A DNA stretch of 64,000 bases from Comamonas terrae (GTDB taxonomy: Bacteria > Pseudomonadota > Gammaproteobacteria > Burkholderiales > Burkholderiaceae_C), in the NCBI RefSeq assembly GCF_001544075.1, contig NZ_BCNT01000015.1:1-64000 (forward strand), written 5' to 3'. Shown in pieces: positions 19,782-24,257 of this stretch. The position numbers and the translations under genes are program-made. Each line of letters begins with the position of its first letter. Positions within the stretch are counted from its first letter, which is position 1. The notes under the pieces were generated by a model, which saw only the letters and a list, made by a program, of their open reading frames with translations, searched no databases and was not told where the DNA came from.

Positions 19782-20546
19782 CTATCCCCGGCCCACGAAA
19801 GGCATCTTGGTCGCCATCACCGTATGGAACAGCACATTGGCCTCCAGCGGCAGATTGGCCATGTGGAGCACGGATTGCGCCACGATGCCGGTATCGATCA
19901 GGGGCTCTGCCGCAATCGTTCCATTGGCCTGGGGCACGCCTTTGGCCATGCGGTCGGCCAGCTCGGTGGAGGCGTTGCCGATGTCGATCTGGCCCACGGT
20001 GATGTTCCAGGAGCGTCCGTCCAGGGCGGCGGTCTTGGTCAGTCCCATCACCGCATGCTTGGTGGCGGTATAGGCTGCGGAATTGGGGCGCGGCGCATGG
20101 GCCGAGATGCTGCCGTTGTTGATGATGCGGCCGCCCTGGGGTGTCTGGTCGCGCATCGCGCGAAAGGCTTGCTGCAGGCAATAGAACATGCCATTGAGAT
20201 TGGTGTTGACCACGTCCTGCCAGTCCGACGGCGACCAGTCCAGGAAGGACCCGGGCGGATTGCCGCGCCCGGCATTGTTGAACAGCAAATCCAGCCGGCC
20301 GAAATGCTTCACCGTCCGGGCAAACAGCTGCTGCACGGCAGCAGGGGCGGTCACGTCGGTGGGGATGGGCAACAGGCGCGCTCCCGCGCCCCAGCGCTGC
20401 TCTGCGATATCCCGCACCTCGTCAAGCAACTGGCTGCGGCGGCCGGCCAGCGCCACGCACCAGCCGTCCTGCGCCAATGCGAGTGCCACGGCCTTGCCGA
20501 TGCCCGAGCCGGCCCCGGTCACGATGGCTACTTTGGGGGTGTGCAT
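19782..20546 (-). CDS. Short-chain dehydrogenase/reductase
   Basis: NAD(P)-dependent oxidoreductase of 254 residues with the classical SDR set: the cofactor motif TGAGSGIG near residue 11, LLFNNAGRG, the serine in [10 protein letters not shown] and the YTATK catalytic pair. The ATG at 20546 has an AAGGAGA site; the longer reading upstream to 20672 lacks one. The substrate is not predictable. It stands alone between an unannotated 366-base gap and the small ORF at 19585. Confidence 0.9.
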
Positions 20547-20912
20547 GCGTTCTCCTTGGACTGCAATCGATGCAGGGCATTGTAGAAAGCAGCGCTCCGA
20601 AGCCATGTCGCGGACATCGATGCCGCAGCCGCGCAGCTGCATGGCCGGAGCAACCGGGCTGCAGGCATGCAAAAAACCGCCTCATGGCGGTTGCTCAGGC
20701 GGTTGTGGATGGCCGTCAATGTGCTGCGACAGCGATCGGGTTTCCATGCGCAATGCCGCATCCCGTTTTGCCAGCGCCTGCAAAGATATTTCTCGGAGAG
20801 CGCCTATCCGTTGCAGTCTTTGGATTTCGCGCGAAGGGAAAACAGGGCCGCCGGCATAGCCGGCGGCATCCGATGGCCACGGCTTGAGAGATCCCAAGCC
20901 GTGGGCATTCAA
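20547..20912. other. Gap of 366 bases with strong hairpins and no convincing gene
   Basis: Contains the SDR promoter region and the two hairpins at 20847-20904. A 76-codon minus-strand frame (20682-20912) exists, but it starts with TTG, has no ribosome-binding site and runs through both hairpins, so it is not called. Confidence 0.5.
20847..20904. repeat. Two adjacent perfect inverted repeats
   Basis: GCCGCCGGC-ATA-GCCGGCGGC (9-bp arms, 20847-20867) and CCACGGCTTG...CAAGCCGTGG (10-bp arms, 20877-20904). They lie just past the end of the 58-residue minus-strand gene. Neither has a T run, so they may stabilise a transcript end rather than terminate it. Confidence 0.6.
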
Positions 20913-21089
20913 TTACCGCTCCTGGCGGTTGCCTTCATTGCGGTTGCTGTTCTGGCCGCGGTTGGAGGATTGCTCCTGTTGACGCTGCTGCCCGCTTTCC
21001 TGCTTCTGCGAGCCGGCATTCTGCTGTTTTTCCTGTGCAGTGCTGTCTTGCTTCTTCTGGCTAGCATCATTGCGATTTTGCTGTGTCAT
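20913..21089 (-). CDS. Gln/Asn/Lys/Ser-rich small hydrophilic protein
   Basis: A 58-residue protein starting MTQQNRNDASQKKQ, made almost only of Q, N, S, K, E, R, G and A. It has no hydrophobic core and so is likely disordered. A GGAG site precedes the ATG at 21089. It is transcribed away from the two ferritin-like genes with a 250-base gap between the starts. Such stress-related hydrophilins are common next to ferritin-like genes, but no specific family was recognised. Confidence 0.65.
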   Translation of the reverse strand: MTQQNRNDASQKKQDSTAQEKQQNAGSQKQESGQQRQQEQSSNRGQNSNRNEGNRQER

Positions 21090-21339
21090 GGTGAACTCCG
21101 AGAAAGATAAGCCGACAACAGTGTCGACACATGGCATGAGCAATCATCGTTCCAGGCCGGCCGCCCTCAATGCCGGAAATCGCGGTGCTTTCAGCGGAAA
21201 AAAATACAGCACTTTTTTCGCCGCTGCTCCATGAAAACCATCGACCGGAAATATCCCTGCAGCCGCGCAAGGAACGCAGGTTGCCGCGTTGCGCCCGTCT
21301 TGTCGAATTCTTTCGGTGAACGCATAAAAAGGAGCATTT

Positions 21340-22128
21340 ATGCAAACCACGACTGCGGAAAACCGGACGGGCGAGCAAGCCTGCCTGGTGGGAACAAAGG
21401 CCATGGAAGAGGCGGTGCAGCAACTCAGTCCACCTTCCATCATCGATACGGCGCTGGCCGACCAGCTGCGGGAAACCTGCGCGATCGAAGCAGACCCCCT
21501 GGGCAGCATTCCGGCGCCCAGGGACGCCAGGGGGCTGCCGAAGCCGGGCCTGGAAAAGCGCAAGGGCAACGACCCCGAAACCTTCGTCGACAAGATGGGC
21601 GAGCGCATTGCCTTCGAGCGCGGCGGGGTGCGGCTTTACGACGCACTGATGGTCAAGTATCTGGCCATGGTGGAAAAGGGCATTCTTCTTCCCAATGCGG
21701 CCGAATGCCTGCAGTCGATGAAGGAGGAGAGCGCCGGCATCGATGCCGATGAAACAGCGCTGTCCACGATGCAGCGCATCCGCAGCGAGGAGCTGGCCCA
21801 CTTCCAGATGCTCTGCGAGGCCGCCAAGGAGATGGGGGCCGATCCCAGCGCCCAGACACCCTGTGCAGATGCGACGGCAGTCGCGGCATTCGGGCTGGCC
21901 CAGGTGGTCAGCGATGCGCGCACCACGCTCGCGCAGGCCCTCAATGCCATGCTGACGGCGGAACTCACCGACAACGCGGGCTGGGAGCTGCTGATCCAGC
22001 TGGCCGAGCAGTCGGGCAAAAAAGAGCTTGCCGAGCGCTTTCGCCTTGCGCTGGGCGAAGAGGCAGAGCACCTGCGGATCATCCGCGCCTGGCATTGCGC
22101 TCTGGTCACCATGGCGGACGGCGTTTGA
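21340..22128 (+). CDS. Ferritin-like domain protein, first of a pair
   Basis: A 262-residue helical protein. Likely metal ligands sit in ferritin-like ExxH motifs: SEELAHF at about 150-155 and GEEAEHLRII at about 239-248, with further glutamates in AFERGG (93) and LTAELTDNAG (208). A polar N-terminal extension of about 75 residues precedes the fold. It probably binds two irons or manganese and may handle peroxide or store metal. The next gene, 28 bases downstream, encodes a second protein with similar motifs, so the pair likely forms an operon. Precise function is unknown. Confidence 0.7.
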   Translation: MQTTTAENRTGEQACLVGTKAMEEAVQQLSPPSIIDTALADQLRETCAIEADPLGSIPAPRDARGLPKPGLEKRKGNDPETFVDKMGERIAFERGGVRLYDALMVKYLAMVEKGILLPNAAECLQSMKEESAGIDADETALSTMQRIRSEELAHFQMLCEAAKEMGADPSAQTPCADATAVAAFGLAQVVSDARTTLAQALNAMLTAELTDNAGWELLIQLAEQSGKKELAERFRLALGEEAEHLRIIRAWHCALVTMADGV

Positions 22129-22156
22129 GCGGCCCCTGCATCAACGGGAGAAGAAT

Positions 22157-23326
22157 ATGAGCATCAATCTCTTTCATGACAAGGGCCTGCCCCTGGAACG
22201 CCAGCGCATGAGCTGGAAAGACATGGTGGGCAAGCCCATCAGCAAGCTGGACGACGACGCCTTCACGCGGGTCAGGGTCATTCTGATGAACGGCCTGGAG
22301 CTGGACTCGCTGCGCACCAAGCAGGTGGCGCTGCGCTGCAATGCCAGGCTGCGCGAGCCTCTGGCCCAGCTCATGCGGGTCGAGCAGCATCAGGCCACCA
22401 CCATCAACTGGCTGCTGGGCGCGGACCATTCGCCCATAGAGACCACCATCGGCTATGAGCAGACCGCCATCGAGGTGACCGCATCGGTGGCCAAGCTGGA
22501 ACCCGATCCCTATCTGGCGCAAGGCTACCGTTATGCCCTGCTGGAGGACTTCGACCACCTCTACCGCTACAGCGCGCTGCTGGACCGCCTGGAAGGCAAG
22601 GACGCCAACAACATCACGCAAGGCTATACGGACATCGTGCCCGCGCGCGAGACCTGGTTCCACCACCGTGCGCCCGAACATGACCTGCTGCGGCCCTACG
22701 CAGCGGATGCGGCGCTGGCCACCAAGCTGCATGCGCTGACGCTCACGGGCGGCGAATACCAGACCCATGACTACTACATGAACATCGGGCCGATCTTCGC
22801 GGACCCGCTGGCGCGCCAGCTCTATGCCGAGATTGCGTCGGTGGAGTCGCAGCACATCACGCACTATGGCTCGATGATCAATCCCGGCGAATCGCCGCTG
22901 GAAAAGCTGCTCATCAGCGAAGCCTGCGAGGTCTGGAACTATGCCGGCTGCGCCAGCCAGGAAGACAATCCCCGCGTGCGCGCGATCTGGGAGCGTTTTC
23001 TCGATTACGAACTCGGGCATTTCCAGATCGCCCTGAACCTGTTCAAGGAAATCGAGCGTCGCGACCCCGCGGAAGTATTGGGCAATGGATCGCTGCCTGA
23101 ATTCATCCAGTTCGAAAGCCACCGGGACTTCGTGCGCAAGGTCATCGAGGAAGAAACCGAATTGCGGAAAAACGGCACGGAATTCACCATCGATGAAGGC
23201 AAGACCTCGTTCGACTACAGAAAGGCCGTCAATGCCGACGGTTCGCCGTCCCAGGCGGTGTCCGAGACCTATTCCTGGGCCAGCGGTACGGAGCTGATGC
23301 GCGTATCGCCCGAGGCAGCGCGCTGA
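22157..23326 (+). CDS. Ferritin-like/di-iron candidate protein, second of the pair
   Basis: A 389-residue soluble, mostly helical protein that I cannot place in a named family. It shows several glutamate-histidine pairs typical of metal-binding helices: RVEQHQAT (76-78), LLEDFDHLYR (130-134), SVESQHITHY (230-236) and YELGHFQIA (285-288). This suggests two four-helix bundles or one extended bundle. The ATG at 22157 has a GGGAG site; an in-frame upstream start overlaps the previous gene and is rejected. Co-transcription with the preceding gene is likely from the 28-base gap. A role in oxidative stress or metal handling is inferred only. Confidence 0.6.
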   Translation: MSINLFHDKGLPLERQRMSWKDMVGKPISKLDDDAFTRVRVILMNGLELDSLRTKQVALRCNARLREPLAQLMRVEQHQATTINWLLGADHSPIETTIGYEQTAIEVTASVAKLEPDPYLAQGYRYALLEDFDHLYRYSALLDRLEGKDANNITQGYTDIVPARETWFHHRAPEHDLLRPYAADAALATKLHALTLTGGEYQTHDYYMNIGPIFADPLARQLYAEIASVESQHITHYGSMINPGESPLEKLLISEACEVWNYAGCASQEDNPRVRAIWERFLDYELGHFQIALNLFKEIERRDPAEVLGNGSLPEFIQFESHRDFVRKVIEEETELRKNGTEFTIDEGKTSFDYRKAVNADGSPSQAVSETYSWASGTELMRVSPEAAR

Positions 23327-23459
23327 CGTCCGGGGCGCGTTGCAGGCAGCGGCAGCAGGTCAGGGAGCGCGGAAGCATGGCGGTGCCATGCCTTCGGGAA
23401 ACGGCGCCATGGCCGGTTTGCGCGCCGCCTGGCAAACGCATGGCTTCATGAGGTGGGCA

Positions 23460-24257
23460 ATGGCAGATTCTTCGACGGCGCGGCTCAGGAGCGCGGGATG
23501 TTTCCTCGGGTTTGCGCTGGGCGGGTTCTTCGACGGCATTTTGCTGCACCAGATCCTCCAGTGGCACCACCTGCTTTCCAATGTGGAGGCCGTGGACGAC
23601 ATGCGGCTGCAGATACTGGCCGACGGCCTTTTCCATGCCCTGATGTACCTGATTGCGGCGATGGCGCTGGTCCAGCTCTGGAGGGCGCGCAAGGCCGCGC
23701 TGCAGCCGGGTGCCGGCCCTGCCCTTTGGGGGTGCGCCTGCATGGGCTTTGGCTCCTGGCATATTGCGGACGGCCTTTTGTCGCACTGGCTCCTGGGCAT
23801 CCATCGGATCAAGGTCGATTCGCCCAACCCTTTGGTCTGGGACCTGGCCTGGTTTGCCGTGTTCGGCCTGCTGCCTTTGGCCATCGGCTGGCGCATGGCG
23901 CGAAACCATGGCGGCCGCGGCGGAGAGGGAGGCGGTGGTGCGGCCGCGGCGGCCGTGCTGTCCCTTGCGGCATTGCTGGCCGGCCCGCTGGCCGCCTTGC
24001 CCGCTGCAGGCGGCTCGACACAGGTGGCGGTGCTGTTTGCCCCGGGTGTCGGCAGCGGCCGGGCGTTCGACGCCCTGTCCCGGGTGGATGCCCGGGTACT
24101 GTGGGCGGACCGTTCGGGAGGCCTGTGGATCGTGGACATGGCCGATCCGGCCATCGCCTGGCAGCTGTACCGCCAGGGCGCGCTGCTGGTGGGCAACAGC
24201 GCGGTGGCGGCCGGGTGTTTCTTGTGGATCAAGGCGCCTGCAGACCGGCGCACCTGA
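23460..24257 (+). CDS. DUF2243 membrane protein
   Basis: Integral membrane protein of 265 residues. The mark of DUF2243 is FFDGILLHQILQWHHLLS near the first helix, with paired histidines, and a second His-bearing stretch GSWHIADGLLSHWLLG. About five hydrophobic segments follow. The C-terminal part is an Ala/Gly-rich linker and a domain with LWIVDMADP. The ATG at 23460 has GAGGTGG upstream; earlier ATGs at 23448 and 23388 are possible. It follows the ferritin-like pair by 133 bases on the same strand. The conserved histidines could bind metal, but no activity is known. Confidence 0.75.
   Translation: MADSSTARLRSAGCFLGFALGGFFDGILLHQILQWHHLLSNVEAVDDMRLQILADGLFHALMYLIAAMALVQLWRARKAALQPGAGPALWGCACMGFGSWHIADGLLSHWLLGIHRIKVDSPNPLVWDLAWFAVFGLLPLAIGWRMARNHGGRGGEGGGGAAAAAVLSLAALLAGPLAALPAAGGSTQVAVLFAPGVGSGRAFDALSRVDARVLWADRSGGLWIVDMADPAIAWQLYRQGALLVGNSAVAAGCFLWIKAPADRRT

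Follow-up and report, generated by a model that had tools for sequence, protein, structure and literature searches.

Sulerythrin is a domain-swapped dimer without a rubredoxin domain; in the portions of the two papers cited here, its di-metal site is described as built from Glu20, Glu53-His56, Glu92/Glu95 and Glu126-His129, with Tyr27 lying seven residues past Glu20, and one of them regards H2O2 reduction by the protein as likely (PMC12833474, PMC12851003). Aerobic-type rubrerythrins (ferriperoxin), which also lack rubredoxin, are likewise built on a four-helix bundle in which each site has two ExxH-type motifs, as far as the cited part of the source goes (PMC3317640), and in the cited portion of a further paper their genes are found alongside those for DUF3501 and an Fe-S oxidoreductase (PMC5114695). 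Here we analysed a 64,000-nucleotide stretch of Comamonas terrae (contig NZ_BCNT01000015.1 of assembly GCF_001544075.1; hereafter the window), in which two neighbouring genes on the forward strand encode a 262-residue protein, P1 (21340..22128), and a 389-residue protein, P2 (22157..23326). P2 resembles the rubredoxin-less sulerythrin and the aerobic-type rubrerythrins in its predicted bundles and motifs; it differs from sulerythrin in that both halves lie in one chain and its two sites are unequal, and from the aerobic-type rubrerythrins in that its partner is P1. The P1-P2 pair is a real, widespread two-gene unit inside the ferritin-like superfamily, in which one of the two proteins is unnamed and has an unusual predicted architecture.

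Predicted folds and metal sites of P1 and P2

The AlphaFold2 model of P2 (mean predicted local distance difference test score, pLDDT, 95.1; predicted template modelling score, pTM, 0.93) contained eight helices at residues 35-59, 63-84, 93-114, 118-146, 187-213, 217-238, 247-268 and 272-300; together with the conserved ligands and an internal repeat, it describes a single-chain double four-helix bundle with two predicted di-metal sites. The model was compared with solved structures by VIA-align, where bundles formed in sequence order would predict matches over about residues 31-146 or 187-303. Among the 50 rows listed, 27 covered residues 26-32 to 297-314, fitting helices 1, 2, 7 and 8, and 21 covered residues 88-92 to 242-256, fitting helices 3, 4, 5 and 6; two began at 88-92 and ended at 310 and 344, and none was confined to helices 1-4 or 5-8. 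These ranges give the first and last aligned residue, and the helices were assigned from the 121-145 aligned residues; families outside the list may also be structural relatives of P1 or P2. As the matched spans join the two chain ends or the middle and never one half, the model indicates that P2 is composed of eight helices interleaved as two four-helix bundles (1, 2, 7, 8 and 3, 4, 5, 6).

In either half, helices two and three were joined by a linker of exactly 8 residues in all 53 homologous sequences, and such a length is short for the usual crossover link between bundle helices. The two halves could be aligned with each other by profile (hhalign probability 88, E 2.9e-6, 89 columns; the first helix of each half falls outside the alignment), which paired E76 with E230, Q79 with H233, E101 with E255, D131 with E285 and H134 with H288. 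On this profile comparison, the halves of P2 are homologous.

We chose the ligands of P2 from conservation and the internal repeat. Predicted site I comprises E48, E76xxQ79, E255xxE258 and E285xxH288, and predicted site II comprises E200, E230xxH233, E101 and D131xxH134, so that each site carries one canonical ExxH and one variant motif, ExxQ at site I and DxxH at site II. Both sets were nearly invariant across the 53 homologues, the commonest exception being Gln in place of H288 (8/53). Compared by spacing, the layout resembles that of the sulerythrin site, from which it differs by Q79 in place of a His at site I and by A104 at site II where sulerythrin has Glu95. Y207, which was invariant in 53/53 sequences, lies seven residues past E200 of site II and parallels Tyr27 of sulerythrin.

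In P1, a single bundle was predicted (pLDDT 91.5, pTM 0.85; helices 79-112, 140-164, 197-224 and 228-261), preceded by an N-terminal extension of about 75 residues with a conserved NRTG-type motif. Its predicted ligands, E93, E151xxH154, E208 and E241xxH244, were invariant in 57/57 homologues, and the predicted protein thus has the four-helix bundle with E, ExxH, E and ExxH ligands by which the ferritin-like superfamily is recognised. The best structural matches (Z 16.0-17.3) included bacterioferritins, YciE and YciF, and these share the bundle fold with P1. By sequence, however, the window P1 passed the cut-off of no listed Pfam family: it scored 19.3 bits against the 24.5 needed for PF00210 and 14.1 against 23.7 for PF05974 (DUF892), and its long extension sets it further apart from DUF892 proteins and bacterioferritins. 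Among the 57 family members, 53 matched PF00210 (best E 5.3e-10) and 42 matched PF05974 (best 7.3e-7), both at E up to 1, and relatives in Pandoraea are annotated as ferritin-like. A profile search matched P1 to symerythrin at E 6.6e-8; symerythrin is ferritin-like as P1 is, but has about 180 residues, and the match covers profile positions 114-227 only.

For the window P2, no NCBIfam match and no Pfam match near cut-off was obtained, as the initial annotation had surmised in placing the 389-residue protein outside known families. PF02915 was absent from the matches listed for the window P2 and was found weakly in 11/53 homologues (best E 0.012). No rubredoxin-like C-terminal domain was matched in the Pfam scans of P2, and the tail of the window protein beyond residue 305 has no Cys. 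A search of PDB sequences with the P2 profile gave nothing at E 10; the single sequence gave symerythrin at E 0.46 only, which we did not accept, together with chance matches to importin. Likewise, a known anti-phage defence protein was rejected (PADLOC-DB searched at E 0.1 with P1, P2 and the neighbouring DUF2243 protein, without any match), and nothing recognisable as P2 appeared among the top-ranked open-access papers, while a query with DUF2243 gave no paper. The same annotation had read repeated Glu-His metal motifs and four-helix metal sites into the two proteins; the conservation described above shows that the motifs are not due to chance, and structure prediction returned one bundle in P1 and a double bundle in P2. 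The interleaved topology of P2 was not foreseen by it.

A further line of evidence came from natural ligand losses, which were tabulated over 88 P2 loci: 80 from genome_contigs, six from plasmids, one from a relative genome and the window itself (87 distinct P2 sequences, those of L002 and L012 being identical). The genome_contigs scan, made with an eight-row alignment, had yielded at least 586 pattern stretches, at least 557 of them encoding P2 relatives; from these the 80 best were retained, which biases the set towards close relatives. A plasmid tblastn had given seven records with P2 relatives, of which six were used. At L070 (3360-4460, an Ectothiorhodospiraceae metagenome-assembled genome), E48, E76, Q79, E255, E258, E285 and H288 were all lost and 6/6 site-II residues were kept, in an alignment that is otherwise regular and an open frame starting at residue 28; on this alignment, it is a natural single-site version with site II only. 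The reverse was seen at L079 (7001-8203, Nannocystis poenicansa), where E101, E200 and E230 of site II were lost and site I was kept. E48, Q79 and H288, and also Y262, were lost at L060, L061 and L068, and two changes each were present at L081 (E76, H288) and L065 (E255, H288).

Under the interleaved pairing, all seven rows with at least two ligand changes confine them to one site, whereas only L065 would do so if one bundle followed the other along the chain. The seven are not independent events, since some are related (L061 and L068), and the count leaves out L016 (shifted frame) and the incomplete L054 (stop inside P2) and L080 (truncated at a contig end); the apparent site-I changes of L016 were rejected as a shifted-frame stretch in helix 7. 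Single changes (H288Q, E76D, E255Q) occurred in 9 further rows, all at site I. The losses, falling at one site per protein, agree with the interleaved pairing as read from these alignments. A domain-swapped pairing, in which the A-B helices of one half pack with the C-D helices of the other, is thus found in P2, by prediction and by ligand losses, inside one chain; a homodimer of single-bundle chains was not found, as one 389-residue chain bears both halves. Of the two sites, site II is better conserved and is probably where the reaction takes place. At site I a Gln takes one of the His positions; some lineages can dispense with this site, which may tune the protein, relay electrons or hold iron.

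Interlaced helical bundles comparable to those of P2 are described, in the part of the source cited here, for the MazG-like nucleoside triphosphate pyrophosphohydrolase fold, in which DUF2166 forms a segment-swapped linked dimer and the dUTPases, a single protomer of which contains the four helices, are regarded as products of duplication (PMC2954211). The fold and function of DUF2166 are unrelated to those of P2 and DUF2166 is itself a homodimer; the likeness is an architectural analogy only.

Pairing of P1 with P2 and spread of the unit

By profile search, P1 adjoined P2 on the same strand in 77/88 loci; the remaining 11 (L005-L008 and L082-L088) were without P1. When the genome_contigs loci were thinned at 84% identity, P1 was present in 48 of the 52 left, downstream of P2 in 42 and upstream in 6. 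Where P1 lay downstream, 23-194 bases separated the P2 stop from the first aligned P1 residue in 65/66 loci, the exception being L076, where the two share a frame. We did not find this case convincing as a P2-P1 fusion, as the end of P2 no longer resembles the family and continues in the same frame into a P1 whose own start is retained. Where P1 lay upstream (11 loci), the gap was 19-98 bases.

A P2 tree of 85 rows was built, with a midpoint root for drawing only and with L016, L054 and L080 left out. The 74 P1-bearing rows formed one clade (support 100/100), and the ten rows with P1 upstream, including the window, formed one sub-clade within it, the eleventh such locus (L016) being outside the tree; therefore, the gene order changed and the adjacency was kept. 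One origin of the partnership is supported by prediction and comparison. Furthermore, over 72 loci the matrix of distances among P1 proteins was correlated with that among P2 proteins (r 0.78; 0/2000 permutations as high), a value to which shared species history contributes, and the nearest neighbour was identical for both proteins in 41/72 loci.

In a phylum sample of 398 genomes (thresholds E 1e-20 for P1 and E 0.001 for full-length P2), P1 was detected in 6 genomes and full-length P2 in 7, with P2 adjacent in 6/6 P1 genomes, the window's own among them. The seventh P2 genome (G426) has a divergent P2 only, and a further match in G647 (E 5.7e-4) was discarded as chance, because the stretch in question has a match to the outer-membrane efflux protein family PF02321. 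Both genes are missing from two sampled genomes of the genus to which the window belongs, and the unit is therefore accessory.

Loci with P1 were distributed over Pseudomonadota, Myxococcota, Bdellovibrionota, Nitrospirota and one bin assigned to Acidobacteriota. Comamonas sp. KCTC 72670 (L061) and Myxococcus vastator (L068) were nearest neighbours for both proteins (P2 93%, P1 87%), a similarity which suggests transfer between phyla or else a mixed contig. P2 relatives were also met in Methanoculleus and Gastranaerophilales, and P2 without P1 in actinomycetes as well; the Methanoculleus relatives without P1 (L083, L084, L087) make up an archaeal branch. Two Pandoraea plasmids typed as conjugative (L003, L004) have three consecutive genes: P2, a ferritin-like P1 and one more. 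This third gene is DUF892 at L003:10051-10560 and is annotated as ferritin-like at L004:10050-10559, so that three ferritin-like genes run in succession. In viral_contigs there were 7 pattern stretches, and no P2 relative was encoded by any of them. Within the window, the G+C content falls to 0.58-0.61 at positions 20500-21999, as compared to 0.64-0.71 in the flanks, which is compatible with acquisition.

The outer genes and the neighbourhood

All four open frames that the initial annotation had described were present at or very near the places where it had put them. Downstream of P2, on the forward strand, lies a frame for a DUF2243 membrane protein with a C-terminal extension (23340..24257; true start uncertain), in which PF10002 matches residues 52-189 at E 9.2e-43, corresponding to about 23493-23906. 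On the other side, a mini-protein of 58 residues counted from ATG is encoded on the reverse strand (20913..21089), divergently from P1. It is rich in Q, N, K and R (Gln 28%, Gly 6.9%; grand average of hydropathy -2.63) and disordered by composition. Hydrophilins are recognised by Gly over 6% and strong hydrophilicity, and the composition of the mini-protein is hydrophilin-like.

In the initial annotation the four genes were thought to be linked, with a membrane protein as partner of the soluble pair. The link stood for P1 and P2, for which neither of the two outcomes named in that annotation as refuting, loss of adjacency in other genomes and a lack of predicted four-helix bundles, was seen; DUF2243 was found near P2 in only two loci besides the window, 0.3 kb downstream at L082 and 3.4 kb upstream at L054 (that is, 3/88, within flanks some of which were short), and the mini-protein in one. 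Four other DUF2243 loci of 8-10 kb contained neither P1 nor P2, and a system with a membrane partner is not supported. As DUF2243 occurs in only 7/150 phylum genomes (6 above cut-off), its co-occurrence with P2 looks like more than chance, yet it is no constant partner. In G426, P2 and DUF2243 are both present, 40 kb apart. Beside DUF2243 in one of the four loci that lack P1 and P2, a CtaG-like frame was noticed by eye.

The single homologue of the mini-protein was found at L054:6285-6584(-) in Pelomonas sp. Root405, in the same divergent place beside the P2/P1 operon. The 6 kb in question (L054:3031-9111) hold DUF2243, the mini-protein, a P2 with an internal stop, and P1. A wider mini-protein family was rejected, as in 60 family genomes the search returned only itself and none of 249 other order genomes (250 searched) contained it; we regard the gene as an optional accessory.

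Among the flanking genes (225/248 scanned, first 25 families listed for each batch) there was no strong recurrence, and ABC transporters, LysR regulators, histidine kinases and short-chain dehydrogenases were the commonest. In batches of these genes, DUF892 was listed in 3/112, hemerythrin in 3/113 and universal stress protein in 3/113. Five of the ten P1-less P2 loci for which neighbours were listed carried hemerythrin (L005, L006, L097), hemerythrin-DUF892 (L008, L085) or DUF4142 (L008, L097) genes. We take this as a stress setting.

Proposed function and its alternatives

A di-iron pair handling metal or peroxide is, we infer, the best reading of P1-P2. More specifically, we see about an even chance that the pair is a two-protein, non-heme di-iron, peroxide- or oxygen-scavenging stress system in which P2 is a fused, domain-swapped erythrin. 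The likeness to sulerythrin leads us to read P2 as an erythrin pseudo-dimer and hence the pair as a scavenger. The ancestor of P2 would have been a rubrerythrin- or sulerythrin-like protein with a domain-swapped homodimer; its gene would have been duplicated and fused, bringing both halves into one chain, and the two bundles would then have diverged, leaving unequal sites. P1, acting with P2 as a second subunit or as a consecutive partner in one system, may supply a third, canonical site, and H2O2 (or O2) would be reduced at diferrous sites with electrons from a separate donor. The architecture, the ligands and the partnership are supported by structure prediction and comparison; iron as the metal, the peroxidase or oxidase reaction, a P1-P2 complex and induction under stress are what we infer from them.

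Several observations weigh against scavenging by a fused erythrin. Z values near 13 in the VIA-align comparison of P2 are those of helical bundles and not strongly specific, and with Foldseek on its own neither model found a match at E 0.001. Ligands were lost at site I in several homologues and at site II in one, and the place at site I that matches Y207 is variable and has no Tyr. Neither P1 nor P2 encodes a rubredoxin domain or other electron donor, and no donor stood out among the listed flanking families, where FMN_red and Pyr_redox_2 appeared twice each. One sulerythrin paper, in the portion cited, calls the precise biological function of that protein unknown (PMC12833474, PMC12851003).

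The same proteins might instead be the two components of a di-iron oxygenase or oxidase with an organic substrate, after the manner of COQ7, AurF or R2-like proteins; P2 would then be the catalytic subunit and P1 either an accessory one or a second active one. The weak Pfam matches of the P2 homologues scatter over Ribonuc_red_sm (16/53, best 0.0035), Rubrerythrin (11/53), FA_desaturase_2 (8/53) and COQ7 (6/53), so that this spread of sequence matches leaves room for an oxygenase or radical-generating role. COQ7 was also matched by 43/57 P1 members (best 3e-7), and FMN_red and Pyr_redox_2 were each seen twice among 112 flanking genes. Nevertheless, we consider such an enzyme unlikely: among the families listed for the flanking genes scanned, biosynthetic and reductase families recurred at most twice, apart from short-chain and zinc alcohol dehydrogenases, large and common families which were seen 2-4 times, and the neighbours at some P1-less P2 loci are of the stress type. 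Methanoculleus and Gastranaerophilales are anaerobic lineages, and the presence of P2 relatives in these lineages therefore favours scavenging over an O2-requiring oxygenase; the argument is partial, because P1-less P2 occurs in actinomycetes too.

Iron handling by a ferroxidase or storage system, in which P1 would build or coat a cage and P2 would load or oxidise the metal, would suit the bacterioferritins, YciE and YciF among the top structural matches of P1. The extra N-terminal region of P1 and the predicted interleaved pair of bundles in P2 are unlike a cage subunit, however, and make this reading improbable as well. A single functional system of all four genes with a membrane partner appears very improbable. 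The rarity of DUF2243 set beside its presence at L082 and L054, the divergent mini-protein at L054 and the shared occurrence in G426 speak for it, and the 85/88 P2 loci at which DUF2243 was not seen, together with the four DUF2243 loci devoid of P1 and P2, speak against it.

Returning to the scavenging system, we also put forward, tentatively and with more doubt than confidence, a fuller version of it. P1-P2 would be an undescribed three-site di-iron machine. Its covalently fused, domain-swapped erythrin would have specialised sites, with the reaction at site II and a tuning or relay role for site I, and would depend on its ferritin-like partner as an obligate one. Acquired once, the pair would then have spread between phyla as a portable module against oxidative stress, in part on plasmids predicted to be conjugative.

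P2 is widespread, yet it stands outside the Pfam and NCBIfam families. If the predicted fold is right, it offers a natural swapped dimer that was frozen into one chain by duplication, and the natural single-site losses make the role of each P2 metal site directly testable. If the pair does scavenge peroxide, it would represent an accessory module against stress, one that plasmids of conjugative type carry as well.

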